Assembly: GCF_000190435.1 (NCBI RefSeq)
Contig: NC_015152.1
Location: forward strand, 2,796,458-2,860,457
DNA length: 64,000 nt
Direction: 5' to 3'
From: Sphaerochaeta globosa str. Buddy
Lineage (GTDB): Bacteria; Spirochaetota; Spirochaetia; Sphaerochaetales; Sphaerochaetaceae
Each line of letters begins with the position of its first letter. Positions within the stretch are counted from its first letter, which is position 1. Position numbers and translations under genes: made by a program. Of the stretch, positions 35,109 to 50,451 are shown piece by piece. The notes below the pieces were generated by a model that was given only the letters and a program-made list of their open reading frames with translations, did no database searches and was not told the origin of the DNA.

Positions 35109-36203
35109 TCACGCTCTTTTACCTAGTACATCGTATGCATATTCGATTGCTTTGATGTCGAGAACTTTGGTTTTGGTGCAACGGAATACTGACTCCTTGA
35201 AAACTGCAAGATTCCTTCCCTCTTCACTCATGGTACTGGTGTATTCTATTCCATCGAACCCAAGACTCTTGATGAAATCGCTGATGTATTGTGTAGGCAG
35301 ATAATCCAAGGAGCTATCGTGCCGACGAAGCGGTTTTGCAATCTCAGCTCTCATTTTCCGTAGCACCTCAAGATTGACTGCATACTGTACATAGTCAATT
35401 CCAAATAAAGAATTAGCTATAAATGGGCTGATTACATCAATTTCAGCGAGATTGATGACTTCGATTTGCTTGAGCAATGCAAAAGCTCCGATGGAGACGT
35501 AGTCAAACATACCCGCACGAATCTCGTGCAGTGTCGTCTTCTCGGAATTTGATACATAGAGAACCTGAACACCTTCAGGATTCGCCCGGCCTGCAGTTGC
35601 ACGCTCGAATGGGGGAGCGCCCATTTCCTTTGTCTTGTACCCGGCTATACTCGTGCAAATTCTTGCCCGGTAAAAAACCTGCCTAGGCTCATATGTTTTT
35701 CTCACACAATGTATGAACAGTTTCAATATGTCTTTGTTCACATACTTGGTATGAAATCTATTGTTTCGCTTGATGTCCTCAACAAAAGTCTGCCAACTAT
35801 AAGTCTTAAGAATGGCATTCTTCTCCAAATATGTGGGATTACAATATTCTGCAATTCCAACTGGTGATTCAAAAAGCTTGGGTTGGGCGACATATTTGTC
35901 GTGGCATAGGGCAAGTATGAGTTTTTGGATACATTCTGCGTCCACGGCAAAGATGCCCCAATCTTGAAACAGGCAATCACGTAATAGAGCTTTTCGTTCA
36001 TCTGGATACCCAGGGGGCAATTCATCAACCACCGAATAGATGTCAAGAAATCCTTCAAACAGTTCTGTTAGGATTGTGTTGGCGGAAATTTCATATATGG
36101 CAGTGTGCTCATGCCCACAAAAGTCACAGGTCCCAATATTTTGAGTTGCTTCAATAACCGCAATGATTTCAGAATCCTTAAAACAATGGACGCAACATTT
36201 CAT
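35109..36203 (-). CDS. HEPN/RES N-terminal domain and RES-domain toxin-like protein
   Basis: 364 residues. The N-terminus carries a small zinc finger (C4-x-x-C7 and C26-x-x-C29) followed by the helical region that precedes some RES domains (the HEPN/RES N-terminal family). Residues 170-330 are a RES domain: VFYRARI (R179), ERATAGRANPEGVQVLYVSNSEKTTLHEIR with R206, Y216 and E227, the positions used by RES toxins to cleave NAD+. The start overlaps the sce7725-like gene by four bases (ATGA). It is the last gene of a three-gene cassette, so it may be the effector that depletes NAD+. Confidence 0.85.
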   Translation of the reverse strand: MKCCVHCFKDSEIIAVIEATQNIGTCDFCGHEHTAIYEISANTILTELFEGFLDIYSVVDELPPGYPDERKALLRDCLFQDWGIFAVDAECIQKLILALCHDKYVAQPKLFESPVGIAEYCNPTYLEKNAILKTYSWQTFVEDIKRNNRFHTKYVNKDILKLFIHCVRKTYEPRQVFYRARICTSIAGYKTKEMGAPPFERATAGRANPEGVQVLYVSNSEKTTLHEIRAGMFDYVSIGAFALLKQIEVINLAEIDVISPFIANSLFGIDYVQYAVNLEVLRKMRAEIAKPLRRHDSSLDYLPTQYISDFIKSLGFDGIEYTSTMSEEGRNLAVFKESVFRCTKTKVLDIKAIEYAYDVLGKRA

Positions 36204-37159
36204 ACAAACAATCCCCCATCAAGCAATTTGCCCATCAGTTCGAGATGGTGCATGATGGTGAGCTTTTTCAAGCTTCCGAGTCCAGGATACGTTTCATCCT
36301 TAAAATGATTGAGTAACGTCTTCAGTCCCATTGTCAGAGGTACTGCTCTCTCTTCCTCATACCAACGAACCAATTTTCTCAAGGCTTGGTAGAATTTTTG
36401 GGCAGGATTGCTGATGTCTTCATTGGAATCGGAAACAAAATGCCTGACTCTCAGGCTATTATCCTTTGCTGGATACACAAGATGGATGGCAACTGCGTAA
36501 GGAGCAAAGCCCGAGGCATTATAGTCATCTCCAATTATGGAGTAGTCACCGAATCCGACATACCCTTCATCTGCGTAGTATTGATACGTATCAGAAAAGG
36601 GTTCGTCTTCTTTATGAGAGTAATCAGCATTACGCTCCTGCCGTTGAAAGCAGTCTGTAAGCAAGACTTTATTTGTAGCAATATTGCGCCTAAATGTTCC
36701 TTCATCGGGTATTACAGTATAGCGGGGCGCAGCTGATGCAAACAAGTTCTGATATGGTTTGAGCATGTCCCGATCGCTAAGGACGACTACTAAATCTTGC
36801 TTCTGGATGCCTAATACTGCTAATTCAGAAAGAATTCTAGGCGTTTCGTTGTTCATAATAAGCGCTTGCAACACTGTAGGCTGCTGAATTGATGCAATGA
36901 AATCCTGTTTTTTCGAAGCATTCCCGATTGCTCCGTCGAGACTTCCAAATTCTTCCAAAAAAGAGCCCACTTCAGGGTTTCGGATTACTGCAAGCGTATG
37001 TTTCATTGTATTGAACTGGGCGATTGTGGATATCAAGGTTGAGGACAGATTGACTGGCTCAATCACCGGGATAATCTGTTCATGTAAAAGGTTTTTTCCC
37101 ACCAGTTCACGTAACGCCAATAAATCAAATTGTCGGCCTCGTATATAAGGGAAATACAT
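36200..37159 (-). CDS. sce7725 family protein
   Basis: 319 residues that I recognise as the sce7725 family, which co-occurs with sce7726. It begins MYFPYIRGRQFDLLALREL, close to the family opening, and contains TVLQALIMNNE and the C-terminal LVRWYEEERAVPLTMGLKTLLNHFKDETYPGLGSLKKLTIMHHLELMGKLL. No catalytic residues are known for the family; a TIM-barrel-like fold is possible. It lies 4 bp after the sce7726-like gene and overlaps the RES gene by 4 bp, which implies that the three act as one unit. Confidence 0.75.
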   Translation of the reverse strand: MYFPYIRGRQFDLLALRELVGKNLLHEQIIPVIEPVNLSSTLISTIAQFNTMKHTLAVIRNPEVGSFLEEFGSLDGAIGNASKKQDFIASIQQPTVLQALIMNNETPRILSELAVLGIQKQDLVVVLSDRDMLKPYQNLFASAAPRYTVIPDEGTFRRNIATNKVLLTDCFQRQERNADYSHKEDEPFSDTYQYYADEGYVGFGDYSIIGDDYNASGFAPYAVAIHLVYPAKDNSLRVRHFVSDSNEDISNPAQKFYQALRKLVRWYEEERAVPLTMGLKTLLNHFKDETYPGLGSLKKLTIMHHLELMGKLLDGGLFV

Positions 37160-37163
37160 ACGT

Positions 37164-38018
37164 TTACCTCCCGTATTGCTGTGTCAGAAAGGATTGCAAG
37201 GATGCAGGATTTGCGCCTGATTCCTTGGAAAAATAGGCAAGAGAGCGCAAGGGATATGGGACATCAATCAGGTGTTCTTGCTTTGCAGATACCCGCTGTT
37301 TCAGCGTATTCAGCACCATGGGATAGGCTTGATCCATTGGAATCTTTGAAAACAACGATTCACACGCTTCATACCAGAACACAGGAGTCGCTTTAGGCAG
37401 GAAGCTATAATAGGAGTACACGATATGCTCGTATTCTCTCTTTCTAAGAAGCTTGAACAATGATTGATGAGAAAGTTTGCTTCTATCAACAATAGGTTCT
37501 TTCTTGTAGGTTGCACTGATAGTATTGCGCTTTGTCAGTGTATAGATGCCAACAGGACCTTCACTAAACATTGCTTGCAACTTGGGAAACGACGACTCAG
37601 GGGCTACAACACAGACGTGGTCGAACGCTTGATAGTAAGCTTGGATCTGACTTTCCAATCGGTCGAAGTTGTCCAAATCAGATTTTATTTCATACACTAC
37701 GGCTTTCCCGTTGATGAGGAGGAAATCAGCTACTGCCTTTCCGATCGGAACTTGGCTTAATGCAGTCGTAGTACGTACGCTGTGCTTTCCTAGCAGCAGA
37801 CTATTAAGCAGGGTGTTCTGATAGAAGTATTCGTTACGGTACGATTTTGCCATTAGTGTATAGAGGGTACTCACAATCTCGCCATTGCTATGGAGATTAG
37901 GATTATCCAGATTGTCCTCAACTATCTCGTGAAAAATGGGATGAGTTCTCTTATTCACTAACTCACCGAACACTTTCTGTGTAAAGAGTTTATTGAATAA
38001 TTGACTGCTATTTTTCAT
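37164..38018 (-). CDS. sce7726 family protein, PD-(D/E)XK nuclease-like
   Basis: 284 residues matching the sce7726 family: YRNEYFYQNTLLNSLLLGKHS, then VPIGKAVADFLLINGKAVVYEIKSDLDNFDRLESQIQAYYQAFDHV. D98, E110 and K112 form the D...ExK pattern of the restriction-endonuclease fold, with the conserved Q after it, so nuclease activity is plausible. GAGGGAT precedes the ATG. It is the first gene of the sce7726-sce7725-RES cassette and the likely sensor or nuclease. The surroundings are defence genes. Confidence 0.8.
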   Translation of the reverse strand: MKNSSQLFNKLFTQKVFGELVNKRTHPIFHEIVEDNLDNPNLHSNGEIVSTLYTLMAKSYRNEYFYQNTLLNSLLLGKHSVRTTTALSQVPIGKAVADFLLINGKAVVYEIKSDLDNFDRLESQIQAYYQAFDHVCVVAPESSFPKLQAMFSEGPVGIYTLTKRNTISATYKKEPIVDRSKLSHQSLFKLLRKREYEHIVYSYYSFLPKATPVFWYEACESLFSKIPMDQAYPMVLNTLKQRVSAKQEHLIDVPYPLRSLAYFSKESGANPASLQSFLTQQYGR

Positions 38019-38326: not shown

Positions 38327-39235
38327 CTAGTGATACACATGCTCCGCATGCCACATGAGGTACTCTCCAGAAGGTCTCTCCTGAGGAGCATTAGGTAGGT
38401 TTGGCAGTTCCTGACCATGGTAAGCATAATAGATTTTTCCATTGCCGTAGTCCTGTTTAAGACGAGGACTTACCTCGACATGATATGACGGAGTTACAGT
38501 CAGGTATCCTTTGTCATACAGCGTATGAATATCCTTTCTGAGCAGAAGGCCATTTCGAACAGAATAACTTCCCTCTTCATTGAAAGGTATGATGTGGGCT
38601 GCATCAAGAACAGGAAGGGTCTTCTCTCCGCTGATTGCACACCTTCTATGGTAGGCTTCGGTAACCATGACACGAAAAGTTCCTTGTCCGATTCGGTATT
38701 TTGTCAGAGTCAAACCTTCTCTGACACCGTCTACCTGCTCAAAATAATTCCGTCCAAAAGGCATGCCGATCCGTTCATACACCGCATCAAACAAAGCTTT
38801 ACCCGTCGGGGTATCAGAATAATACGTTTTGCCTTGTACAATGCTCTTGCCCCAATCAGAGGGAGCTGGTATCCAATCGGACTCAGCAAAGAAGAAGGGA
38901 GAGCTAAGGATGATGCACCCTATCTGGGGATTGGGATCATTGGTCGTACGATATTTTGCAATTCGACTCTCCAACGACTCAAAGCTCTGTGTTCCATTCT
39001 TCTCCCCAAAAGCTTCCCAGGCTAGAAAGCTGGGCAAGATATAGAACCGGACAAAGTAAGCGCCGCCGACAATGTAATTCAACGGTGCATGGAGTTTGAA
39101 TAAGAAAAGTTCTCCTGGTTCGAGCGCCTTGAAATTGGTACTCCCACCCGGCTTCCAGAAGTTCACCTCATCGTATGCTTGAGCTGAAAGTCTCTGATAC
39201 CAATCATAATCAGTTACCCCAACGAATGCTCTCAT
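38327..39235 (-). CDS. HNH endonuclease with N-terminal PUA/EVE-like domain
   Basis: 302 residues. The N-terminal third (GSTNFKALEPGELFLFKLHAPLNYIVGGAYFVRFYILPSFLAWEAFG) looks like a PUA/EVE-type modified-base reader. The C-terminal part is an HNH nuclease: RCAISGEKTLPVLDAAHIIPF, then RNGLLLRKDIHTLYDKGYL, giving H, N and H. A reader plus HNH suggests cleavage of modified DNA. It starts inside the end of the helicase gene (ATGA overlap), so it is the third gene of a cassette with HTH-MazG and DUF2075. Confidence 0.85.
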   Translation of the reverse strand: MRAFVGVTDYDWYQRLSAQAYDEVNFWKPGGSTNFKALEPGELFLFKLHAPLNYIVGGAYFVRFYILPSFLAWEAFGEKNGTQSFESLESRIAKYRTTNDPNPQIGCIILSSPFFFAESDWIPAPSDWGKSIVQGKTYYSDTPTGKALFDAVYERIGMPFGRNYFEQVDGVREGLTLTKYRIGQGTFRVMVTEAYHRRCAISGEKTLPVLDAAHIIPFNEEGSYSVRNGLLLRKDIHTLYDKGYLTVTPSYHVEVSPRLKQDYGNGKIYYAYHGQELPNLPNAPQERPSGEYLMWHAEHVYH

Positions 39236-41187
39236 CGCGTTTCCTCCGCTGCCAGCATTTCGTCGTCTTCAAATGCATACCCTGTAATCCTGCTCCTCAG
39301 GAATTGTGCCAATACTTTATCAGTGCAATACACATAACAGCCTTTCATCCCCCGGCTCATTAAAGTTCTATAGGTATTGCGGATGATGATGTCCACATCC
39401 TTCGCTGCCTGTAAGTCGCCCTTTTTCACTTTACCAATTAAACCATGCAGGGACTTGTCACTCTTTGCTCGCCTGGAAAAATCGGTGATGACCTTCCCAT
39501 TTTCAAAGCGCAGGTCATCCCCGATTATCACACCGACATACGAAAATTCCAAACCCTGAGTGGTATGAATGCATCCAACTTGGTCGATGGAACTCTTGGA
39601 TATGGCAAAGGTCGGGTCACTGCTGAGATTCCAACGCATGGCAAAGTCACCGAGAACAATGTCATTCTCAGTATTAGCTCCATTTTTACTAATCCACTCC
39701 CAGCAGTAGCCGGCAACCAGGCGTGCTTTATTGTCTGGTGCATTCCTTTCTTCAATGAGCCTTCTGAGCTCAGCCGGGTCATCCAATACTCTAAAATCGT
39801 ACTCAATACCTACCAGTGTTGGATTGGCTGTTTCCCTCTGGATTCCCAGAACATAATCAAGCCAAGACAGGTAGCCATCGGATCCATTGCAACGGAATTG
39901 TGAGACCAGCTCCCCTTCCTGCACCTCTGCTCCAAACTGCTTTGCCCAATAAAGGATTCGCTCCCTATCACCATAATCCTGGGCGGTTACCCGTTGATCT
40001 TCGTCTAGAAAGAATACGCTGCAGGCAGCAGCATGCATGATTTCCTTGATCTGGTCCTCACCAGTTATCTTCGGGCCAAGTTGGGTTCTCTTATTCAAGC
40101 GATGTGCCTCATCGACAATGAGCGTACCAAAGTCATTGGACTCAGAATCAATGAAACCAGAAGAACTCTTGAAAAGACTGGAAATGTTCTTTCTCTTGAA
40201 CTTCCCATCCTTCAATCGTTGTTCAAATACATTGCGTGGAGCACTGTTTTTGGTCACATAGGCACATACCTGACCTTCATTACTTAACTGGACCAGCAGG
40301 TTAATAGCAACAACCGTCTTGCCTGTTCCCGGTCCGCCTTTGACTAAGAAAACACGTTTCTTTCCATCAGAGTAGGACCTGCGGGAGAGGGAGAGTATCT
40401 GCTCATAGACAATCTTCTGCTCATCGATGAGAACAAATTCCCGCTTGCCCCGAAGCATTGCTGCCAAGGAGTCCTGTAGGCTCTTGGAAGGCCTAATCGT
40501 TCCATTCTCAATATAGAAGAGAGTCTGCTTGGCATCGCCCTTGCGGATGTACTTTTTAATAAAGGTACAGAGAAGTTCAGAATCGGAGCGGCAGAACAAT
40601 GGCGATTCTTCAAGAATTTCCTTGAAATATGGCATAAACAAAGGATCATTCTTTGCTTTACTGTAGTAATTGTGCAGGTATGCACAGCTCTGCAAGGTAA
40701 TAGGAACATCTTCAACGCTGGAGTTGTAATCAGAAATGAAAGCTCGATAGGACCAAGCTTGGTAGGAGGGATGCACAGCCTTGTGTTTGCCTCCTCCAAG
40801 GTAAGTTTTCACATGCTTGATCTCTGGTTCATCCTCGGTAAGCAACAGCTGGTCAACAGCTTCAAGAGGAAACACCTCGCTCCACTGCTTTAATTCAATT
40901 ATTACAGCACTATGGCGGTTGTGTTCATCAAGACCGCTAAGGATGAAGTCGACTCGCTTAGAGGTATTAGGGATGGCAAACTCGATGGCTACTCCTGAGT
41001 CCTGAGGAATTTCAGGGTCAAGCAGAATATTCTGCATATGGGTAAGCGAATTAATCCACGACTGCTTTTCACTGCTCCCTACATGCTTATGCAGCTTCAC
41101 TGCCATCAAATCCTCAATCTTTCGGTCGATGGCATTGGTCCGAACATCGTGAAGAAACTGCTGTTTGTCTCCTGCATATACAAGCAT
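39232..41187 (-). CDS. DUF2075 (Schlafen-type) helicase with N-terminal PD-(D/E)XK nuclease-like domain
   Basis: 651 residues. At the N-terminus RVDFILSG (D80) and AVIIELK (E98, K100) form a restriction-endonuclease-like core. The helicase has Walker A at 284-291 (GGPGTGKT) and DEAH at 359-362, a FRCNGSDGYLSWLDYVLG motif, and CIHTTQGLEFSYVGVIIGDDL near 540, which are typical of the DUF2075/Schlafen group 3 family. It acts on DNA or RNA with ATP. GGAGG precedes the ATG. Flanked by the MazG gene (13 bp) and HNH gene (overlap). Confidence 0.9.
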   Translation of the reverse strand: MLVYAGDKQQFLHDVRTNAIDRKIEDLMAVKLHKHVGSSEKQSWINSLTHMQNILLDPEIPQDSGVAIEFAIPNTSKRVDFILSGLDEHNRHSAVIIELKQWSEVFPLEAVDQLLLTEDEPEIKHVKTYLGGGKHKAVHPSYQAWSYRAFISDYNSSVEDVPITLQSCAYLHNYYSKAKNDPLFMPYFKEILEESPLFCRSDSELLCTFIKKYIRKGDAKQTLFYIENGTIRPSKSLQDSLAAMLRGKREFVLIDEQKIVYEQILSLSRRSYSDGKKRVFLVKGGPGTGKTVVAINLLVQLSNEGQVCAYVTKNSAPRNVFEQRLKDGKFKRKNISSLFKSSSGFIDSESNDFGTLIVDEAHRLNKRTQLGPKITGEDQIKEIMHAAACSVFFLDEDQRVTAQDYGDRERILYWAKQFGAEVQEGELVSQFRCNGSDGYLSWLDYVLGIQRETANPTLVGIEYDFRVLDDPAELRRLIEERNAPDNKARLVAGYCWEWISKNGANTENDIVLGDFAMRWNLSSDPTFAISKSSIDQVGCIHTTQGLEFSYVGVIIGDDLRFENGKVITDFSRRAKSDKSLHGLIGKVKKGDLQAAKDVDIIIRNTYRTLMSRGMKGCYVYCTDKVLAQFLRSRITGYAFEDDEMLAAEETR

Positions 41188-41903: not shown

Positions 41904-43286
41904 ATGCCTTACCTCTATGATGCAAATTCGAAGGAATCAATTTGTGATTTTGCCCGTATGCTTGAAGATTCTTGCGTTGCAGAAGCACTTGATACAAACG
42001 CAATGTATGGGGGGATGCCCATAGGAGAGGCCTCGATTGAGTGGGATAAAGAATATTCAGGTAAAGGAGGCTTTGGTCAGTATCTTGAGGAGGTCTATTT
42101 TGGCAAACGTAATAATTCATTGTCCAAAGCTGACTTTGAAGAAGCTGGATTGGAACTTAAGACTGCTCCGCTCAAGAAACTTTCGAATGGGGAAGTAAGG
42201 GCAAAAGAAAGAATTGTGCTTGGACTCATGGATTTTATGACTATCGTACATGAGAATTTTGACACATCTCATTTTATCGCAAAGAACATAGACATCTTAT
42301 TGGTTTTCTATTTCCATGATCCTCTCAAAGAGTACTGCAATCTCGGCATCCCGCTAGTAGATATATGGAACTGTATCCAGGAGGATGAGTACCAGATTAG
42401 GAAGGACTGGGAATATATAGTTAATAAAGTACAGGAGGGCCGTGCCCACGAAATCTCTGAGGGAGATACACTTTACCTTGGAGCATGTACCAAAGGAGCA
42501 ACAAAAGAAACTGCACAAAGAATGCAACCATATTCTCCTTTGCTCGCCCACGCTCGCGCCTTCTGTTTTAAGATTCAGTATGTCAATCATATCTATCAAA
42601 TACTATTGGACCGAAAAAAGGACCGTTTCGTCTCATACATCCACATGCTCAACTCCCCTGGTAACGAACTGGAGCAAATCGTTAAAAATAAGTTCTTGCC
42701 CTACATAGGTATGAATGTACTTATGATTTGCACTCTTCTAAAAATCCCTTTTAAGCTGAAGTCAAAAAATTTTTATGCAATGGTGACTAAACGAATACTT
42801 GGAGCAGAGGATACTCAACAGATATACGAGTTCGAGGCTGCTGATATACAGATTAAAACCATCAGAATTGAACCTAATGGCAAATGCAAAGAATCAATGT
42901 CGTTCAAGCAAATCCGGTACGAGGAGATAATTGATCAAGAATGGGAAGATAGTGATTTTTATGTAGAACTTACCAGCAAATTCTTTTTTATAGTTTTCAA
43001 GCATGATCACCCAGAGGATCCCTACATTCTCGACCGGGTTCTATTCTGGAATATGCCCGAAACAGACCTTCAAGTAGTAAAGCAAGTGTGGTTGGATGCT
43101 CAACAGAAAATTTCCAGTGGGAATTATGAGAATTTTGTCAAATCTAGCGATAGGAAAATCGCTCATGTGCGGCCTCATGCAACAGACTCTTCTGATGTAA
43201 TGAGAACACCACAAGGAACCTATGAGAAAAAGAAAAGCTTTTGGCTTAATCGAAATTACATCATGGAAATTTTGAACAATAATTAA
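41904..43286 (+). CDS. Type II restriction endonuclease, Sau3AI/MutH family
   Basis: 460 residues, near the length of Sau3AI. The catalytic region GGFGQYLEEVYFGKRNNSLSKADFEEAGLELKTAPLK contains D78, E85 and K87, with the MutH spacing D-(6)-E-x-K, followed by RAKERIVLGLMDF. A second, C-terminal MutH-like half follows, as in Sau3AI, starting near residue 200. Predicted recognition sequence: GATC. AAGGA lies ahead of the ATG. Its methyltransferase is 5 kb away at 48302-49510 on the other strand, with three genes between them. Confidence 0.88.
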   Translation: MPYLYDANSKESICDFARMLEDSCVAEALDTNAMYGGMPIGEASIEWDKEYSGKGGFGQYLEEVYFGKRNNSLSKADFEEAGLELKTAPLKKLSNGEVRAKERIVLGLMDFMTIVHENFDTSHFIAKNIDILLVFYFHDPLKEYCNLGIPLVDIWNCIQEDEYQIRKDWEYIVNKVQEGRAHEISEGDTLYLGACTKGATKETAQRMQPYSPLLAHARAFCFKIQYVNHIYQILLDRKKDRFVSYIHMLNSPGNELEQIVKNKFLPYIGMNVLMICTLLKIPFKLKSKNFYAMVTKRILGAEDTQQIYEFEAADIQIKTIRIEPNGKCKESMSFKQIRYEEIIDQEWEDSDFYVELTSKFFFIVFKHDHPEDPYILDRVLFWNMPETDLQVVKQVWLDAQQKISSGNYENFVKSSDRKIAHVRPHATDSSDVMRTPQGTYEKKKSFWLNRNYIMEILNNN

Positions 43287-43418: not shown

Positions 43419-43428
43419 GAGTATACTC
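43419..43428 (+). promoter_or_regulatory. Palindrome in the promoter region of the ParB-SNF2 cassette
   Basis: GAGTATACTC is a perfect 10-bp palindrome 28 bp before the ParB-like gene. TATACT inside it could be a -10 box; a TTGTAT element (43382-43387) lies upstream. This suggests that the three genes have their own regulated promoter and are not simply read through from the restriction enzyme gene. Confidence 0.4.
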
Positions 43429-43455
43429 ATAGCGATATATTTTTATGAGGTTGAT

Positions 43456-44754
43456 ATGGATAAAAGTGCCCGCGAGCGAAAGATTCAAGAAGTTTTAAAA
43501 ACCACCCCAATAAAGACAGGAATTCATCTCACACTACGCAATAAATCCAGAGACTTCAATGTCTATCAAATCCCTTTAGATTGTCTTATCTACAACTCCT
43601 ACAACGGACGATTCAAATCGAAGTTCAAGACATATGAAGCAATTCATGGGAGAAAGCTTAATTCAGAGATTTCGTCAGACATGCAAATCATCAACGACTT
43701 TCTTTGGAAATCTAATGAACCAAAAAATAAGCAGACCATGGATGACATCCGTGAGAAAGGGCAACAGCAATCGGGAATTGTAACAAGAGATGGTCAGATA
43801 ATTGATGGGAACCGCCGTTTCATGGTTCTTTCGAAACTGCACGAGATATATCCCACCCAATTTGAATATTTTGAGGCAGTAATCCTCACTGAAGACATTG
43901 ATGAGCGTGAGCTGGTACGACTTGAAACTGAGGTACAATTAGGTACAGATGAGAAAGAAGGCTACAACGCCATTGAGAAATACCTTCGTGTCGATGAGTT
44001 ACTCAATGAGTATACTTATACTCCTGAAGCCATTGCTAAAATGATGAACCTAACGATAAAGGACATCGAGAAGTACCAACAAATATATCAACTATTCAAG
44101 GAGTATCTGGAGTTCATTGGGTATCCAGAATACTATGATTTACTCGAAGGGGTTGAGGATCCAATCTTACAATTACATTCAGCTGTATCCAGATTAGAGA
44201 AGGGTTCCCATTCAGCAAATCTCTCTAGGACGATAAATCCGGAAGAAATTGAACAGCTGAAGCTTATCGTTTTTGATACAATCAGAATAAAACCTACCAA
44301 CGATCATAAAATCGTTCGTGAAATTATTGGAAAACCAAATGCTAAAACAGCTGACGGTATTTTTGGCAGAAAAGCTATTTGGGAAGACTTTTTCGAAAAA
44401 CACATGGAAAAAGTGCATAAAAGAATCGCCCCTACCGTACAAGCACTTAAAACTGAGCTTGCAACTGATGATTTTGAATCCTCGACCAATGACATAGAGA
44501 AAACTCTCCAGAATACTTATTCAAAAGAGATGAGAACCAATTTGGATAAAGCAATTAGAGAAGTCAAAATTGACAACGAGGATGATAAAGTTCTTGTTAT
44601 TGTGGAAACAATCCGAGACAGCACTAAAAATCTATTCGATACTTATCATGATTTGTTGATTGCCCAATACTCAAAAAACAAAGAAGTGAAGAAAGCAATT
44701 GCTGAGACTATCGAGAATCTGACTATGATACAGAAAGAAATGGCAGGTTCATAA
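43456..44754 (+). CDS. ParB/Srx-fold nuclease-like protein
   Basis: 432 residues. The ParB-like core lies at 95-125: REKGQQQSGIVTRDGQIIDGNRRFMVLSKL, whose DGNRR (117-121) matches the GHRR/NRR loop of ParB/DndB/Srx proteins. It follows with HTH-like helices (YTPEAIAKMMNLTIKDIEKYQQIYQLFKEY, 195-225), as in ParB. No plasmid-partition partner (ParA) is close. GAGG precedes the ATG, and the SNF2 helicase begins 4 bp after the stop. ParB-fold CTPases and nucleases occur in several defence systems; the role here is not established. Confidence 0.82.
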   Translation: MDKSARERKIQEVLKTTPIKTGIHLTLRNKSRDFNVYQIPLDCLIYNSYNGRFKSKFKTYEAIHGRKLNSEISSDMQIINDFLWKSNEPKNKQTMDDIREKGQQQSGIVTRDGQIIDGNRRFMVLSKLHEIYPTQFEYFEAVILTEDIDERELVRLETEVQLGTDEKEGYNAIEKYLRVDELLNEYTYTPEAIAKMMNLTIKDIEKYQQIYQLFKEYLEFIGYPEYYDLLEGVEDPILQLHSAVSRLEKGSHSANLSRTINPEEIEQLKLIVFDTIRIKPTNDHKIVREIIGKPNAKTADGIFGRKAIWEDFFEKHMEKVHKRIAPTVQALKTELATDDFESSTNDIEKTLQNTYSKEMRTNLDKAIREVKIDNEDDKVLVIVETIRDSTKNLFDTYHDLLIAQYSKNKEVKKAIAETIENLTMIQKEMAGS

Positions 44755-44758
44755 GGGA

Positions 44759-46750
44759 ATGAAAAAACCGACTTTGTCCTTTGGAATTGAAGGCACTGAG
44801 CTAACAATTCAAATTAGTCCAGATATTAGAGAGCAAACTATCTTTTTTAGAACCTTGCAATCTTTGATTGCAAAATCTGTTGTGTATAGGAACAATTTTC
44901 AATCCAGTGATAATTTTTCTGTAACAACTAATTCTACTGATCAATCGAAAGATCTCCTGATTGCTATATATGGATTATGTCAACGTCAAAACATCATTTT
45001 TGAACCATTGACGTTACAAACTCACAAATTGGTGGAGCAACTTAAGTCTAAAAAGAATGATTATGATACTTGTAGAGAAGCAGCAATCTTAGCAAGGGAC
45101 AATTTTCTAGGGATAGAGTATCAATCGTTCAAGCATTCTATTGACAGATTAATGACTAGAACATTACGGGAATACCAGTATAGGGCTGCTTTTTTTGCCG
45201 TAAAAGCCATTATGTCATGTAATTTTTCAGTTCCCGGTTCAGGAAAGACATCCATCGCCTATGCATCGTTTGCGTACCTTAACAGCCTTCCAGAGACCGA
45301 GTCAGAACATGTTGATAAAGTCTTGGTAATCGGCCCAATCAGTTCCTTTCAACCGTGGAAAGAAGAATTCGTGCAATGCTTCGGAAGCAAACGCGAACTA
45401 AGTGTAGTAGTCCTTGATAAATTCACACCTGATCAAATCAATACATATTGCAGAAGTATGCTTACGAATGAAATTACCGTGGTTAACTATGAAAAAGTGA
45501 GAAGAAACGCAGATTCATTTAAAATATTCCTTGAACGTAACAAGACAATGCTTGTGATAGACGAAGTGCATCGAATGAAAAATCCCCTCTCGCAAACATC
45601 CATCGCTATCAGAAAATTTGGGGATATACCTAACGCAAAAATGTTATTAACCGGTACTCCAATGCCCAATGGGTATGAGGACTTATATACGCAGTTTTCA
45701 TTTCTTTGGCCAGACCATAAAACAATAGGTTTTACCTATGACCAGCTGAAAAACCTATCCAAGGCAGGACAAAACTCGCTTTACGCAAAACCGACGATAG
45801 AGGTTTTACAACAAAATATCTCCCCTTACTTTGTAAGAATCACAAAACAAATGCTACAGCTGCCCCCGCCAGAGTTACCTGTTATAAAAACGGTTAGACT
45901 TTCTGAAACCGAACAAAAATTGTATGACCTAGTCAATCAAGCAAAAATCAATATTGATCCAAATGATCTTACGTCTATTCGCTTACTACGTGCAAAAGTG
46001 ATTAGACTTATGCAAGTGACAACCAATCCAAAGTTACTGAAAAAACCCTTAAATAGGATTAGTTTTGAGTTACTTTTCAACAACTCTGTTCCCGATGACA
46101 CTGAAGAGAGTGATGATAAAGACTCTTTCAATCCAATGATTTACGATCCCCTGGTCCTAATGGCCTCTCAAGCATCCAAGAATCAGATTTCAAATCTGAT
46201 TGAAGAAATTGGAGTTTCAACAAAGCTGAGAACAGTGCTCAATCTAATTTCTGATTTGGTAAAACAAGGTAATAAGGTAATCGTTTGGACCATCTTCGTG
46301 CAGACAATGCAAGACTTGCGCAATCTCATACAAAAGGAACTTGGACTTTCTGTAGAACTACTTAACGGGCAAACTAAAAATTTTAGAGCAGAGATTATTG
46401 AAGAGTTTAAACACTCAGATGCGCTCCCTGTAGTAATTGCAAATCCAAGTGCGGTGTCCGAATCAATTTCACTCCATACTTGCTGTCATCATGCCATCTA
46501 CTTGGATATGAGTTACAACGCAGTTCATTACATCCAATCGAAAGATAGGATACACCGATTGGGCCTCTCTCCAGAAATTAAAACCTTTTATTACTATATT
46601 CAGGCAAATAATACGATTGATGAACGAGTCTACAGTCGTGTCATCATGAAAGAAGTGAGGATGAATCAAGCAATTGAAAATGAACTACCCCCTATTCTCC
46701 AACAATCCTCTATTACTGAAATAATTGAGGATTTGACTGCAAAGGGGTAA
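44759..46750 (+). CDS. SNF2-family helicase/translocase
   Basis: 663 residues. Walker A is SVPGSGKTS (157-165), DEVH is at 268-271 (VIDEVHRMKNP), motif III is LTGTPMPN near 297, and the C-terminal half has VIVWTIFVQTM, ISLHTCCHHAIYLDMSYN and QSKDRIHRLG, the SNF2 motifs V-VI. The N-terminal 130 residues are unlike known SNF2 regions and may carry target binding. SNF2 enzymes translocate on double-stranded DNA. It stands between a ParB-like protein and an unknown coiled-coil protein, with 4 and 29 bp spacing. Confidence 0.9.
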   Translation: MKKPTLSFGIEGTELTIQISPDIREQTIFFRTLQSLIAKSVVYRNNFQSSDNFSVTTNSTDQSKDLLIAIYGLCQRQNIIFEPLTLQTHKLVEQLKSKKNDYDTCREAAILARDNFLGIEYQSFKHSIDRLMTRTLREYQYRAAFFAVKAIMSCNFSVPGSGKTSIAYASFAYLNSLPETESEHVDKVLVIGPISSFQPWKEEFVQCFGSKRELSVVVLDKFTPDQINTYCRSMLTNEITVVNYEKVRRNADSFKIFLERNKTMLVIDEVHRMKNPLSQTSIAIRKFGDIPNAKMLLTGTPMPNGYEDLYTQFSFLWPDHKTIGFTYDQLKNLSKAGQNSLYAKPTIEVLQQNISPYFVRITKQMLQLPPPELPVIKTVRLSETEQKLYDLVNQAKINIDPNDLTSIRLLRAKVIRLMQVTTNPKLLKKPLNRISFELLFNNSVPDDTEESDDKDSFNPMIYDPLVLMASQASKNQISNLIEEIGVSTKLRTVLNLISDLVKQGNKVIVWTIFVQTMQDLRNLIQKELGLSVELLNGQTKNFRAEIIEEFKHSDALPVVIANPSAVSESISLHTCCHHAIYLDMSYNAVHYIQSKDRIHRLGLSPEIKTFYYYIQANNTIDERVYSRVIMKEVRMNQAIENELPPILQQSSITEIIEDLTAKG

Positions 46751-46779
46751 TACTTGAAGGAGAAAAGAATACCAACATC

Positions 46780-48297
46780 ATGGAAACAACCACCTTTTTT
46801 AGCATAGAGCCCTTCAATTCAGTCCCCTATTGGGAAAAACGCGTTTCTGAATTTTCTCTACAAAAAGGTACCTCAAAAAGGGAACGGGATTCTTTTTATC
46901 TTGAGTTCTTCATCAGTGCATATCTTGATAACAAATCAAAGATTGCGAGAAAGCTAGGTGTCCCATTTACCGAAGTAGTTTTCGATAATCCCAATGCTCC
47001 AATTATGGAGAAAATCGTTCAACAGTATAATTTTTATGATGAGAAGGAATTGAAACGAGTCGCTGAAGGCTTCTATCACTATTTTCGAATTTTTCAATTC
47101 TGGAATGAATATTGGACTATAAACTACGACACCTTGCGAAAAGATGTCGATAAAAGATTTCTCACTCGTTGTGCTCTAACTTTTCTCACCCTATCCTACC
47201 CCGCTTCGTATACTTCATACATGGAAAGAAACGCTCAATCCACATTTTTCCTTTATGATGATCGTGTAAAGGGGCTTGGTTTTTCTAGCATAGCAAAACT
47301 ACTTGAGTGTTCATTGCTATTTTGCCAGCCAGGTACCAAATTAGCTTTTCCTTGGGATCCCAGACATCAGGATGAGTCCACTTTCATCTGGAACGAAGCA
47401 GAGAAGAAAGATTACTTCGAAGACTTCAAAGAAGTATTGGGTAATTTCCTTCACTCAGGATATTCAATGCGGCATGAAGACTATTCGCTTCTCACTAAAA
47501 TCCGAAGTGGTGTACTGCCTCTTCAATATTCGTGGCGAAGAAATTCAACCAATGAGACACTACAAGACAAGCAAACTATAAATCGATTGATTGTTGAATA
47601 TTCCAAGAAACCAATTCAACCAACTTTCTTAGTCAGAGTTGATGTAAATCAGTCTCCAGCATTTGAAGATGATTCAACATCCATCGATTCCCTCGAGCTA
47701 GATAGTAAAGATGCTTATTCAGAGCAGATTGTTATACTTTTAGAAACTGTCTTTATAATGGAAGAATTACTTCTAAATAAAGCACTTACTAATGATGACA
47801 AGAACGATAGAATTGAAGAACTTAATACAGAACTGAAGACCATCCTTGAAACCGTCACAAATTTGGATGGTGATGTGCCATTCGAGTTTCTTAAACTTGC
47901 TACCACTCATTTGGAAAGACTTTACGTTCAATTACAAGGAATCGTTGCTCTACGCGAAAAGGAAAAAGCAAGCACACCCTCTGCTTCGGAAATATTCAAC
48001 GATGTAAATGTCTTGACCGCCTTTGAAGAAGAAAAAAGGACTCATGCTCTTTTTGTCCATCTCCAGCAAAGTCCAGCCCCTGAACCATTAGAAAAGCAAA
48101 ATAGCAAATATTCATTGCTTAAAGATCAACATCTCAAGCAAACTTTACTACTTTCCAACGCTTTGGAGCAGAATCGGAAGTTGAGAGATCAATTGCAGGA
48201 AAGTATTTCAATCAACTCGACCAAGAAAGCACTATCAAAATATTTCTCAGCAGAATCACTTGATCGATTAATTGAATACCTCAAGAAAAACGGGTGA
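46780..48297 (+). CDS. Unknown 505-residue protein with C-terminal coiled coil
   Basis: I do not recognise a family. Residues 1-270 are rich in aromatic and charged residues (FYHYFRIFQFWNEYWTINYD, LAFPWDPRHQDESTFIWNEAEKKDYFEDFKEVLG), compatible with a compact alpha domain. Residues 310-390 and 440-505 are predicted helical with heptad-like patterns (EELLLNKALTNDDKNDRIEELNTELKTILETV; LLSNALEQNRKLRDQLQESISI), so oligomerisation is likely. No nuclease motif is visible. Third gene of the ParB-SNF2 cassette; its stop is 4 bp from the stop of the convergent methyltransferase. Confidence 0.75.
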   Translation: METTTFFSIEPFNSVPYWEKRVSEFSLQKGTSKRERDSFYLEFFISAYLDNKSKIARKLGVPFTEVVFDNPNAPIMEKIVQQYNFYDEKELKRVAEGFYHYFRIFQFWNEYWTINYDTLRKDVDKRFLTRCALTFLTLSYPASYTSYMERNAQSTFFLYDDRVKGLGFSSIAKLLECSLLFCQPGTKLAFPWDPRHQDESTFIWNEAEKKDYFEDFKEVLGNFLHSGYSMRHEDYSLLTKIRSGVLPLQYSWRRNSTNETLQDKQTINRLIVEYSKKPIQPTFLVRVDVNQSPAFEDDSTSIDSLELDSKDAYSEQIVILLETVFIMEELLLNKALTNDDKNDRIEELNTELKTILETVTNLDGDVPFEFLKLATTHLERLYVQLQGIVALREKEKASTPSASEIFNDVNVLTAFEEEKRTHALFVHLQQSPAPEPLEKQNSKYSLLKDQHLKQTLLLSNALEQNRKLRDQLQESISINSTKKALSKYFSAESLDRLIEYLKKNG

Positions 48298-48301
48298 AAA
48301 C

Positions 48302-49510
48302 TCAAGCCTTTAGCAATTTATATTCCTTGGCAAACTCAAGCAAGCTTTTTCCCATTCTCTCGATTAATCCTACGACTAAAGCATTACCCATGCAGAAATA
48401 TCGAGTTCTCATAGGCATGCCTGTTGCAGTCCAATCTGGTTCAAAGCCATCCAGTTTTTCACATTCTCGTGGAGTCAACAACCGCAAACGGTTCGTCTGT
48501 GGGTCAAGAATCACATGAGTAGATCTATTCTTTGTAGATTCTGAAGTAAGCATGGTCCTACTTGGCCTATCCAAGTATTCAGGAAATGGTATTGCGCCTT
48601 CTGTATAATTGTACTCAAACCCTTCGCGGGTTTTCCTCATCTCCCGTTTCGATCCTTTCATGTATTCCCATTTGGGCATGTCCTCTGCCCTGATATAGAA
48701 TGATTCACCAACATCTGTATCTAAGATGTCACCTAGTGTCATTCCGTTTTCACATTCTTGGGGAAGAACAGTCTGATGAACAGCTGAGAAGTCAACACAA
48801 TAGCCGGCATTTCCAAAGAGCGTACTGAACTCATCAGTGATTCTCACCAAATCCTTAGGGATTTCGATGCTCTTTTGAATTGAGCCTGACTCAACCGGAA
48901 AGGTTCGAGCAAAGAACCCTGACTGAAGAATCACATCAGAAGAAGGGGACGCATACATCTTACGAGCTTTCTTATTTGGTTTGGTTGCAAATATAAAAGT
49001 TCTCCTTCTTCGTTGAGGGAAACCATAATCAGCCGCATTGATGATTCTCCATTCGACAATATAACCCAATGCATTTAAACAAGATAGTATAATTGCAAAA
49101 TCCCTACCTCGTTGCTTAGCCGGTGATTTTATTAATCTATCAACATTCTCCAACAGAACAAACTTTGGTTGCTTCTGTTCAATAATTCTTCTTATTTCCC
49201 ACCAAAGAATTCCTTTCTTGCCTTGAATTCCCTTGGCAAGAGTAGCAGCAACCGAATAGTCCTGGCAGGGGAACCCCCCAACCAGAAGGCTGTGGTCTGG
49301 AATATCCTTTGCTTCAACCTTTGCAATATCTGCGTTGGAATGAATGCCTTCTGAGAAATGTTTGGTGTAACAGTCAAAAGCCCATTGGTTCTTCTTTCCG
49401 GGTTCCCACTGATTGGCGAATGCTACTTTCCAGACTCCACTAGCCTCGAGCCCGACCCGAAAGCCTCCCACACCAGCGAACAGTTCCACTACATTATAGT
49501 TATCAGACAT
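48302..49510 (-). CDS. DNA cytosine-5 methyltransferase, Sau3AI-type partner
   Basis: 402 residues with motif I FAGVGGFRVGLEASG (11-25), the PCQ catalytic loop at 81-83 (GGFPCQDYSVA), ENV in LLENVDRLIKS, QRRRRTFIFA and C-terminal RLLTPRECEKLDGF. These order as in m5C enzymes, with a target-recognition domain of about 130 residues between. It protects host DNA against the restriction enzyme at 41904-43286; the closest pairing known is M.Sau3AI, which methylates the cytosine of GATC. Orientation is opposite to the nuclease. Confidence 0.93.
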   Translation of the reverse strand: MSDNYNVVELFAGVGGFRVGLEASGVWKVAFANQWEPGKKNQWAFDCYTKHFSEGIHSNADIAKVEAKDIPDHSLLVGGFPCQDYSVAATLAKGIQGKKGILWWEIRRIIEQKQPKFVLLENVDRLIKSPAKQRGRDFAIILSCLNALGYIVEWRIINAADYGFPQRRRRTFIFATKPNKKARKMYASPSSDVILQSGFFARTFPVESGSIQKSIEIPKDLVRITDEFSTLFGNAGYCVDFSAVHQTVLPQECENGMTLGDILDTDVGESFYIRAEDMPKWEYMKGSKREMRKTREGFEYNYTEGAIPFPEYLDRPSRTMLTSESTKNRSTHVILDPQTNRLRLLTPRECEKLDGFEPDWTATGMPMRTRYFCMGNALVVGLIERMGKSLLEFAKEYKLLKA

Positions 49511-49719: not shown

Positions 49720-50451
49720 CTAAAATAGCCGCTTGCTCTCATCCTCGGTGATGAGATCCAAGAATTCCTTTGGACCTAATCTAATACCCGATTCTTCAAG
49801 CCTTTCTTTTCGCTCATCAAACAGCTTTTTCCACACAGGTTTCTTTTCACTTAGGACTCCATGATGAAGCAAACGATGGCAAATTGGGCACAGGGAGAGG
49901 ATATTTGCGTACACATCGAGGCTATATTCAAATTTCTCCTGCTGTTTTAAGGGTATCAAATGATGTCCTTCCATGTAGGGCATCTTGTAAGCAACTGAAG
50001 TAAAAGTCCTATGTGATGAATCTGATTCACATTGAAAATGCTCAGCAATCAATACTTGCCTAACAATAATTCGATCCCTATCAGCTTCTTCTCTTACCCC
50101 TAATGTACGTTTTCTTGTAGGGATAACAGGATAATCAATCAGTGCTAAGGGGGCAGGTTTTCGCTCGAACTCTTTACCTTCAACAAAATTCATATAGTTA
50201 TGCAGGCCAGCAGTATACATCTGCTTTCCTCGTGAATCCAAGGCACAGAAATCTTCATCACGCTTTAGCATTTGCTCTATGTCTTGCAGTTCAGCATATG
50301 AATCAATTTCGTAGATTGAAGCATATTCGTTGAATCCATTGCTTTGTAAAACAGAATCAATCTTTCTTAATGCCTGCTTATAGTTCTCAATCGATTTTGT
50401 TGAGAGATCACGAATATTTAGCAGGTATCGTTCAAAGTACTCTTGTTGCAT
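49720..50451 (-). CDS. HNH endonuclease family protein
   Basis: 243 residues. The N-terminal 85 residues (YFERYLLNIRDLSTKSIENYKQALRKID) resemble the SAM-like core-binding domain of phage integrases. The C-terminal part holds an HNH motif: GHHLIPL, then ANILSLCPICHRLLHHG, which supply the histidines, asparagine and CxxC. AGGA precedes the ATG. It closes the defence island on the right and may be a third restriction-type nuclease or a mobile-element remnant. No partner gene is adjacent. Confidence 0.82.
   Translation of the reverse strand: MQQEYFERYLLNIRDLSTKSIENYKQALRKIDSVLQSNGFNEYASIYEIDSYAELQDIEQMLKRDEDFCALDSRGKQMYTAGLHNYMNFVEGKEFERKPAPLALIDYPVIPTRKRTLGVREEADRDRIIVRQVLIAEHFQCESDSSHRTFTSVAYKMPYMEGHHLIPLKQQEKFEYSLDVYANILSLCPICHRLLHHGVLSEKKPVWKKLFDERKERLEESGIRLGPKEFLDLITEDESKRLF

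Follow-up and report, generated by a model that had tools for sequence, protein, structure and literature searches.

A ParB-fold protein and an SNF2 ATPase recur as a gene pair beside restriction-modification genes: a candidate energy-dependent accessory of restriction

Why do three closely spaced genes lie between a Sau3AI-type restriction nuclease and its methyltransferase in Sphaerochaeta globosa str. Buddy? The arrangement is found in a window of 64,000 nucleotides (the whole stretch of DNA that was analysed), and a sequence-only reading had proposed that the trio, described as a ParB-like protein, an SNF2 protein and a coiled-coil protein of no recognised family, might be a DNA-translocating defence module or an accessory that makes restriction act over distance. 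The genes and features of the locus, in window positions, are:

41904-43286, plus strand: Sau3AI-family type II restriction endonuclease, predicted to recognise GATC (NF040973, 427.6 bits, cut-off 300; PF02976 MutH, 5e-39)
43426-43449, no strand: imperfect 24-bp palindrome (80%) just 5' of the ParB gene; a possible operator, weak
43456-44754, plus strand: ParB-fold clamp-like protein, 432 aa (AF2 pLDDT 92; Foldseek 7bnk; boxes I-III)
44759-46750, plus strand: SNF2-family dsDNA translocase (predicted), 663 aa, 4 bp after ParB (PF00176, 3.7e-24; PF00271, 3.1e-11)
46780-48297, plus strand: orphan protein, 505 aa, 29 bp after SNF2, without family or relative, coding-like codon-position GC
48302-49510, minus strand: C5-cytosine DNA methyltransferase, convergent with the module (PF00145, 3.6e-66; PADLOC MTase_II, 532 bits)
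49720-50451, minus strand: HNH endonuclease, beyond the methylase (PF01844, 2e-5)

A check of the open reading frames reproduced exactly the coordinates of the trio and the two gaps, and the matches listed above agree with its earlier placement between a Sau3AI-type nuclease and a methyltransferase on the opposed strand, as well as with the identities given to the ParB-like protein (by the fold of its model) and the SNF2 protein. The nuclease scores above the curated cut-off of its family and has an adjacent C5-methylase, as in Sau3AI-type II restriction-modification (R-M) systems; it ends 169 bp before the ParB module. With ParB directly 5' of SNF2 and R-M genes adjacent, the window holds an R-M-linked pair. 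The trio is indeed AT-richer than its surroundings (GC 0.375-0.377 vs 0.515-0.528 in flanking genes) and lies, together with the R-M block, inside a low-GC island at about 33-52 kb of the window, whose flanks were matched in an empty-site comparison in different relatives, on contigs ending early. The trio had also been credited with its own palindromic promoter; the palindrome exists, but the region holds fewer promoter-like matches than shuffled sequences do (14 vs 21.4).

We scanned an alignment of the SNF2 protein against 84,980 species genomes, obtained at least 547 confirmed places and analysed the best 80, which were picked on SNF2 alone and not on ParB (locus L103, with a weak ParB match and no SNF2, was left out). 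Among these best 80, ParB lies directly 5' of SNF2 in 74 of the 74 loci with upstream room, the remaining 6 having just 2-526 bases of upstream sequence, and the pair is present in all 46 loci of 15 kb or more. The two genes are separated by 20 nt or less in 88/90 cases. The best 80 of the at least 547 loci come from at least ten phyla (Bacillota 54, Bacteroidota 12); 5 of 393 Spirochaetota genomes have a true pair, and in viral collections 22 of 24 contigs carry it; of the two that do not, one is truncated. Plasmid searches with ParB and with SNF2 find largely the same records, with the genes side by side, from Enterococcus, Lactococcus, Lactiplantibacillus, Exiguobacterium, Priestia, Mesorhizobium, Azospirillum, Kozakia and Streptomyces; many copies are on plasmids and many are chromosomal. 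The whole trio was not found as a unit elsewhere, so that what recurs of it is the pair, both beside Sau3AI genes and beside several other R-M types. The unit is the ParB-SNF2 pair, and the third gene occupies an exchangeable position. At a contig edge in Staphylococcus pasteuri (L085, 13-3087), ParB and SNF2 matches fall in one 1024-aa open reading frame, which suggests a fusion of the two.

The association of the pair with R-M genes is strong. An automatic screen of the best 80 of at least 547 loci found R-M genes in at least 42 of the 46 loci of 15 kb or more and a C5-methylase in 41 of them, while the chance rate for a C5-methylase, estimated from at most 52 matches over 91.6 Mb of such genomes, is about 1% per 20 kb. 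Within the same best 80, 56 of 74 genome pairs have R-M genes as co-directional direct neighbours within 100 nt. The screen missed D12 methylases in L081, L084 and L088, a BglII-like enzyme accompanied by an N6/N4 methylase in L117, and a C5-methylase visible by eye in L054; it recognised no R-M gene within reach of the pair in L002, L005, L077, L099 and L100, which belong to the sigma-HTH group described below. The partners include Sau3AI with a C5-methylase, DpnII/BanI-like enzymes (PF04556, PF24447) with a C5-methylase, type III Mod-Res, BglII-like enzymes with an N6/N4 methylase, D12 methylases and, in Alphaproteobacteria, PADLOC REase_II. On a tree of the SNF2 core the R-M type changes 24 times vs 62.8 with shuffled labels, a difference that measures clustering and not probability, as the shuffle ignores relatedness. 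Bacillota share a DpnII/BanI clade with Bacteroidota and one Sau3AI clade with Prevotella. Since the tree clusters by R-M type over phylum boundaries, the pair and the R-M system appear to move as a unit.

Directly 5' of ParB there can be a member of a family of ~650-1160 aa, some members of which have a sigma70 region-4-like HTH (L059, 5391-7778; L061, 5418-7793; L002, 6363-8957; L005, 3013-5460). Its members are found in Bacilli and groups related to them and in two genomes of Spirochaetota, and the gene frequently separates Sau3AI from ParB.

What could these two proteins do? The ParB-like protein has an N-terminal nucleotide-binding domain with boxes I-III, an HTH region and a long helical C-terminal region. 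Its model, built from a 74-sequence alignment (AF2 pLDDT 92), finds ParB-CDP 7bnk as best Foldseek match (E 2e-5, prob 1.0), with ParB and Noc in nucleotide-bound form as the top matches. At 0.15-0.3 of query the global TM-scores are low, which we read as correspondence of only the N-domain and the HTH region, with a different domain orientation. The boxes GQ, DGNRR and E..Q........YN.I align to Myxococcus ParB (7bnk/7bnr) with key residues invariant, and Q103, G113, N119, R120, R121, E157, Q161 and Y170 are invariant in the family. On model and alignment, the protein is an intact clamp-type NTP fold, with putative nucleotide binding and clamp closure. ParB-fold proteins may bind CTP, ATP or GTP, and sequence does not predict which (PMC12704722); that this one uses CTP would be a guess. 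No model in Pfam, PADLOC, NCBIfam or PHROGs recognises the family, and against Pfam the window protein gives sub-threshold matches only (ddrB-ParB, E 0.059), so that annotation pipelines would miss the system.

The SNF2 protein of the window has N- and C-terminal helicase domains with Walker A, DEXH and motif VI (motif I NFSVPGSGKT, DEVH, QSKDRIHRLGL), and the motif I of its subfamily is kept in 114/114 members. It has no PLD domain. It matches phrog_62 (E 5.7e-70), a family of long phage DNA helicases which we take to be DarB-like.

The third gene is of another kind. Searches of Pfam, PADLOC, NCBIfam and PHROGs give no match for the 505-aa protein, and none in PDB is significant, in keeping with its description as a protein of no recognised family. 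Plasmids, phages, viral contigs and genomes of the bacterial family (139) and phylum (393) yielded no relatives, and there is no profile similarity to sigma-HTH, NOV_C, Sau3AI, ParB, HNH or REase families; two matches at E 0.003-0.005 and the PDB matches (SopD2, Dps; E 0.016 or worse) were taken as noise. Since its codon-position GC matches that of neighbouring genes, it looks like a real gene. The earlier term coiled coil would lean on a mostly helical model, built without relatives, whose low confidence (pLDDT 37.6) makes it unusable.

In relatives, the position 3' of SNF2 is usually taken by a NOV_C (PD-(D/E)XK-like) protein, whose gene usually overlaps SNF2 by ~26 nt. Among the best 80 of at least 547 loci, NOV_C is present in 49 of 64 genome loci where SNF2 lacks a PLD and in 1 of 16 where it carries one (p = 3e-7, a value weakened by phylogenetic non-independence). 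The signature GYD...EVK, kept in 69 of 70 NOV_C proteins, agrees with the published prediction that DUF3883 is a REase domain (PMC3710099), and the PLD part of SNF2 matches an NCBIfam anti-phage PLD protein at 91 bits, far under the cut-off of 1100. In L056, L057, L063 and L073 a stand-alone Sau3AI C-half followed by an HNH protein stands in third position, adjoining a complete Sau3AI-type system; the C-half of L057 (11688-12380) corresponds to positions 241-475 of NF040973. Relatives of the window HNH protein lie beside the pair in these four loci and in L083 and L012, and the gene at 49720-50451, outside the coordinates of the trio, belongs to such loci too. The layout of L062 (SNF2, NOV_C, opposed C5-methylase, Sau3AI) resembles that of the window, with NOV_C in the place of the 505-aa protein. 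By this argument from position, the 505-aa protein would take the place that a nuclease or a part for recognition has in relatives. In type III and several sigma-HTH loci the pair has neither PLD nor NOV_C. A Prevotella locus (L014, 11616-13109) has NOV_C fused to an S24 peptidase domain (LexA/repressor-like), hinting at induced self-cleavage.

Is the pair a known system? It shares with ParB-CTPase fold proteins (ParABS, Noc, KorB) the fold and boxes I-III followed by an HTH region, but has neither ParA motif nor ParA partner, being partnered by an SNF2 ATPase and an R-M system; SNF2 is absent from the text of a survey of ParB-fold proteins (PMC12704722). R-M operons with SWI2/SNF2 and MORC ATPases, a C5-methylase, Vsr and nucleases have been described, with a proposed role in looping or translocation (PMC2292703). 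The likeness lies in these operon parts, SNF2 ATPase, C5-methylase, Vsr and nucleases, and in that role, whereas their second ATPase is GHKL/MORC and here a ParB-fold protein takes its place; Pfam finds no GHKL domain among ten window proteins. The same two fold types meet in phage polyvalent proteins with DarB SNF2 and DdrB-like ParB domains (PMC5512222), but these are injected and protect phage DNA, together with adenine methylases, while here separate genes stand beside a complete R-M system. DUF3883 fused to SNF2 has been reported (PMC3710099), as have BREX-related SNF2 systems (PMC12839542). Like BREX-related systems, DISARM, Zorya type I and Dpd combine an SNF2 ATPase with methylase and/or PLD parts. 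DISARM was rejected (DrmD 50 bits vs cut-off 610; no DrmA/B among ten neighbouring proteins), as were Zorya type I (ZorD 50 bits vs 1500; no ZorA/B neighbour) and Dpd (DpdE 24 bits vs 500; no DpdA neighbour). GmrSD/DUF262 and DndB are ParB/Srx-fold NTPases of restriction or modification systems, but the window ParB matches neither family and lacks an HNH fusion, and DndB, unlike it, acts in phosphorothioation. We found no description of a ParB-SNF2 pair in the openly accessible papers searched, and the earlier remark that no named system with such parts is known agrees with the family libraries and literature searched.

The best explanation, which we regard as evenly balanced, is that ParB-SNF2 is a two-gene accessory of R-M loci, a clamp and a translocase forming an energy-dependent arm of restriction. 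The clamp would load on DNA that lacks the mark of the partner methylase, the SNF2 motor would travel along the duplex driven by ATP, and an exchangeable partner would cut or mark DNA over distance. This role would fall to a protein of the NOV_C or HNH kind, to the PLD of a PLD-SNF2 fusion, or to a free-standing Sau3AI C-half together with HNH, and host DNA would be protected by the partner methylase. In the window, the 505-aa protein would hold the partner position and the HNH protein (49720-50451) would be the likely nuclease. The sequences show the tightly coupled pair, its linkage to R-M, the folds with their conserved active-site residues and the exchange of the third part; from these we infer complex formation, the loading rule, translocation, cutting at a distance and the role of the 505-aa protein. 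The methylases that go with the pair differ in chemistry, so it is probably the R-M partner or the third part that reads the mark of self or non-self, with clamp and motor supplying movement. As the type III and several sigma-HTH loci have neither PLD nor NOV_C, a dedicated nuclease is not universal, and in those loci Res or some other protein would have to act as partner. In the window itself, the 169 bp that part the module from Sau3AI and the orphan nature of the third part also speak against this explanation. A DNA-translocating defence module, as the sequence-only reading had it, survives in that a clamp and motor module tied to restriction recurs widely, but not as a trio; that it makes restriction act at a distance is a plausible inference. 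A fuller version, a widespread and so far undescribed restriction machinery in which ordinary type II and III systems have a second energy-driven arm whose ParB clamp and SNF2 motor bring interchangeable nucleases to unmodified DNA, the 505-aa protein being a new effector family, we hold to be tentative and somewhat doubtful; to our knowledge it would be the first case of a ParB clamp switch at work in immunity.

Where a nuclease part is present the energy-driven arm fits best, and its main rival is a regulator. The pair might be a helper of R-M which clears proteins from DNA or times R activity so that the methylase protects the host, as on establishment in a new host. A general helper would be expected to partner many R-M chemistries, as the pair does (C5, D12, N6/N4, type III), and the loci without added nuclease and the frequent sigma-type HTH protein upstream fit as well; most loci, however, also encode a predicted nuclease, either as a fusion with SNF2 or in a gene that overlaps it, and a helper could do without one, so that we consider this reading unlikely. 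Still less probable is a backup or abortive arm that detects when restriction has failed (foreign DNA that is cut or protected, anti-restriction proteins) and responds by degrading DNA or killing the cell. In its favour, the module is always tied to an R-M system yet carries its own nucleases, and RES and sce7726 genes lie in the window island, but the module has no recognised toxin domain and, short of systematic comparison, we noticed no sign that those genes are kept with the pair. Quite improbable, too, is a self-standing defence system that merely gathers beside R-M genes in defence islands, as the five loci without recognised R-M neighbours would allow; against it stand the direct operon contact with R-M genes, the retention of R-M type along the SNF2 tree over phylum boundaries, and a linkage of about 90% vs about 1% expected (best 80 of at least 547 loci). 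A partition or replication module of a plasmid or mobile element, to which the ParB fold and the many plasmid copies might point, is very improbable and was rejected, since the ParA-binding motif LG[R/K]GL is found in 0/74 ParB-like sequences, the strict partner is SNF2 and not ParA, and many copies are chromosomal.

Recurring over at least ten phyla beside very different restriction systems, the pair looks like a motor-type accessory to restriction in bacterial defence that is so far undescribed. It would join the R-M-associated ATPase modules; calling it categorically new would need mechanism. If the reading as an energy-driven arm holds, many type II R-M systems, thought of as simple cutter and methylase, would possess a motor arm that depends on energy. 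Type II restriction would then be set apart less sharply from types I and III, and the nucleotide-switch clamp of ParB would extend from chromosome segregation to immunity. Compact, and present on enterococcal, lactococcal and lactobacillal plasmids with several R-M chemistries, the pair offers a test bed.

Other genes share the island. On the minus strand at 35109-38018 a RES-domain gene (its N-terminus weakly matching HEPN/RES), a 319-aa gene of no recognised type and an sce7726-family gene form a close tandem that looks like a toxin or defence cluster. An HNH_2 endonuclease (38327-39235), which weakly resembles restriction enzymes for phosphorothioate DNA (58.9 bits vs cut-off 180), overlaps by 4 bp the end of a Schlafen group-3 (SLFN-g3) helicase gene (39232-41187). 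Another SLFN-g3 helicase gene, in L067 (6564-8438), overlaps the start of the ParB gene, and such helicases may at times join the ParB-SNF2 module.
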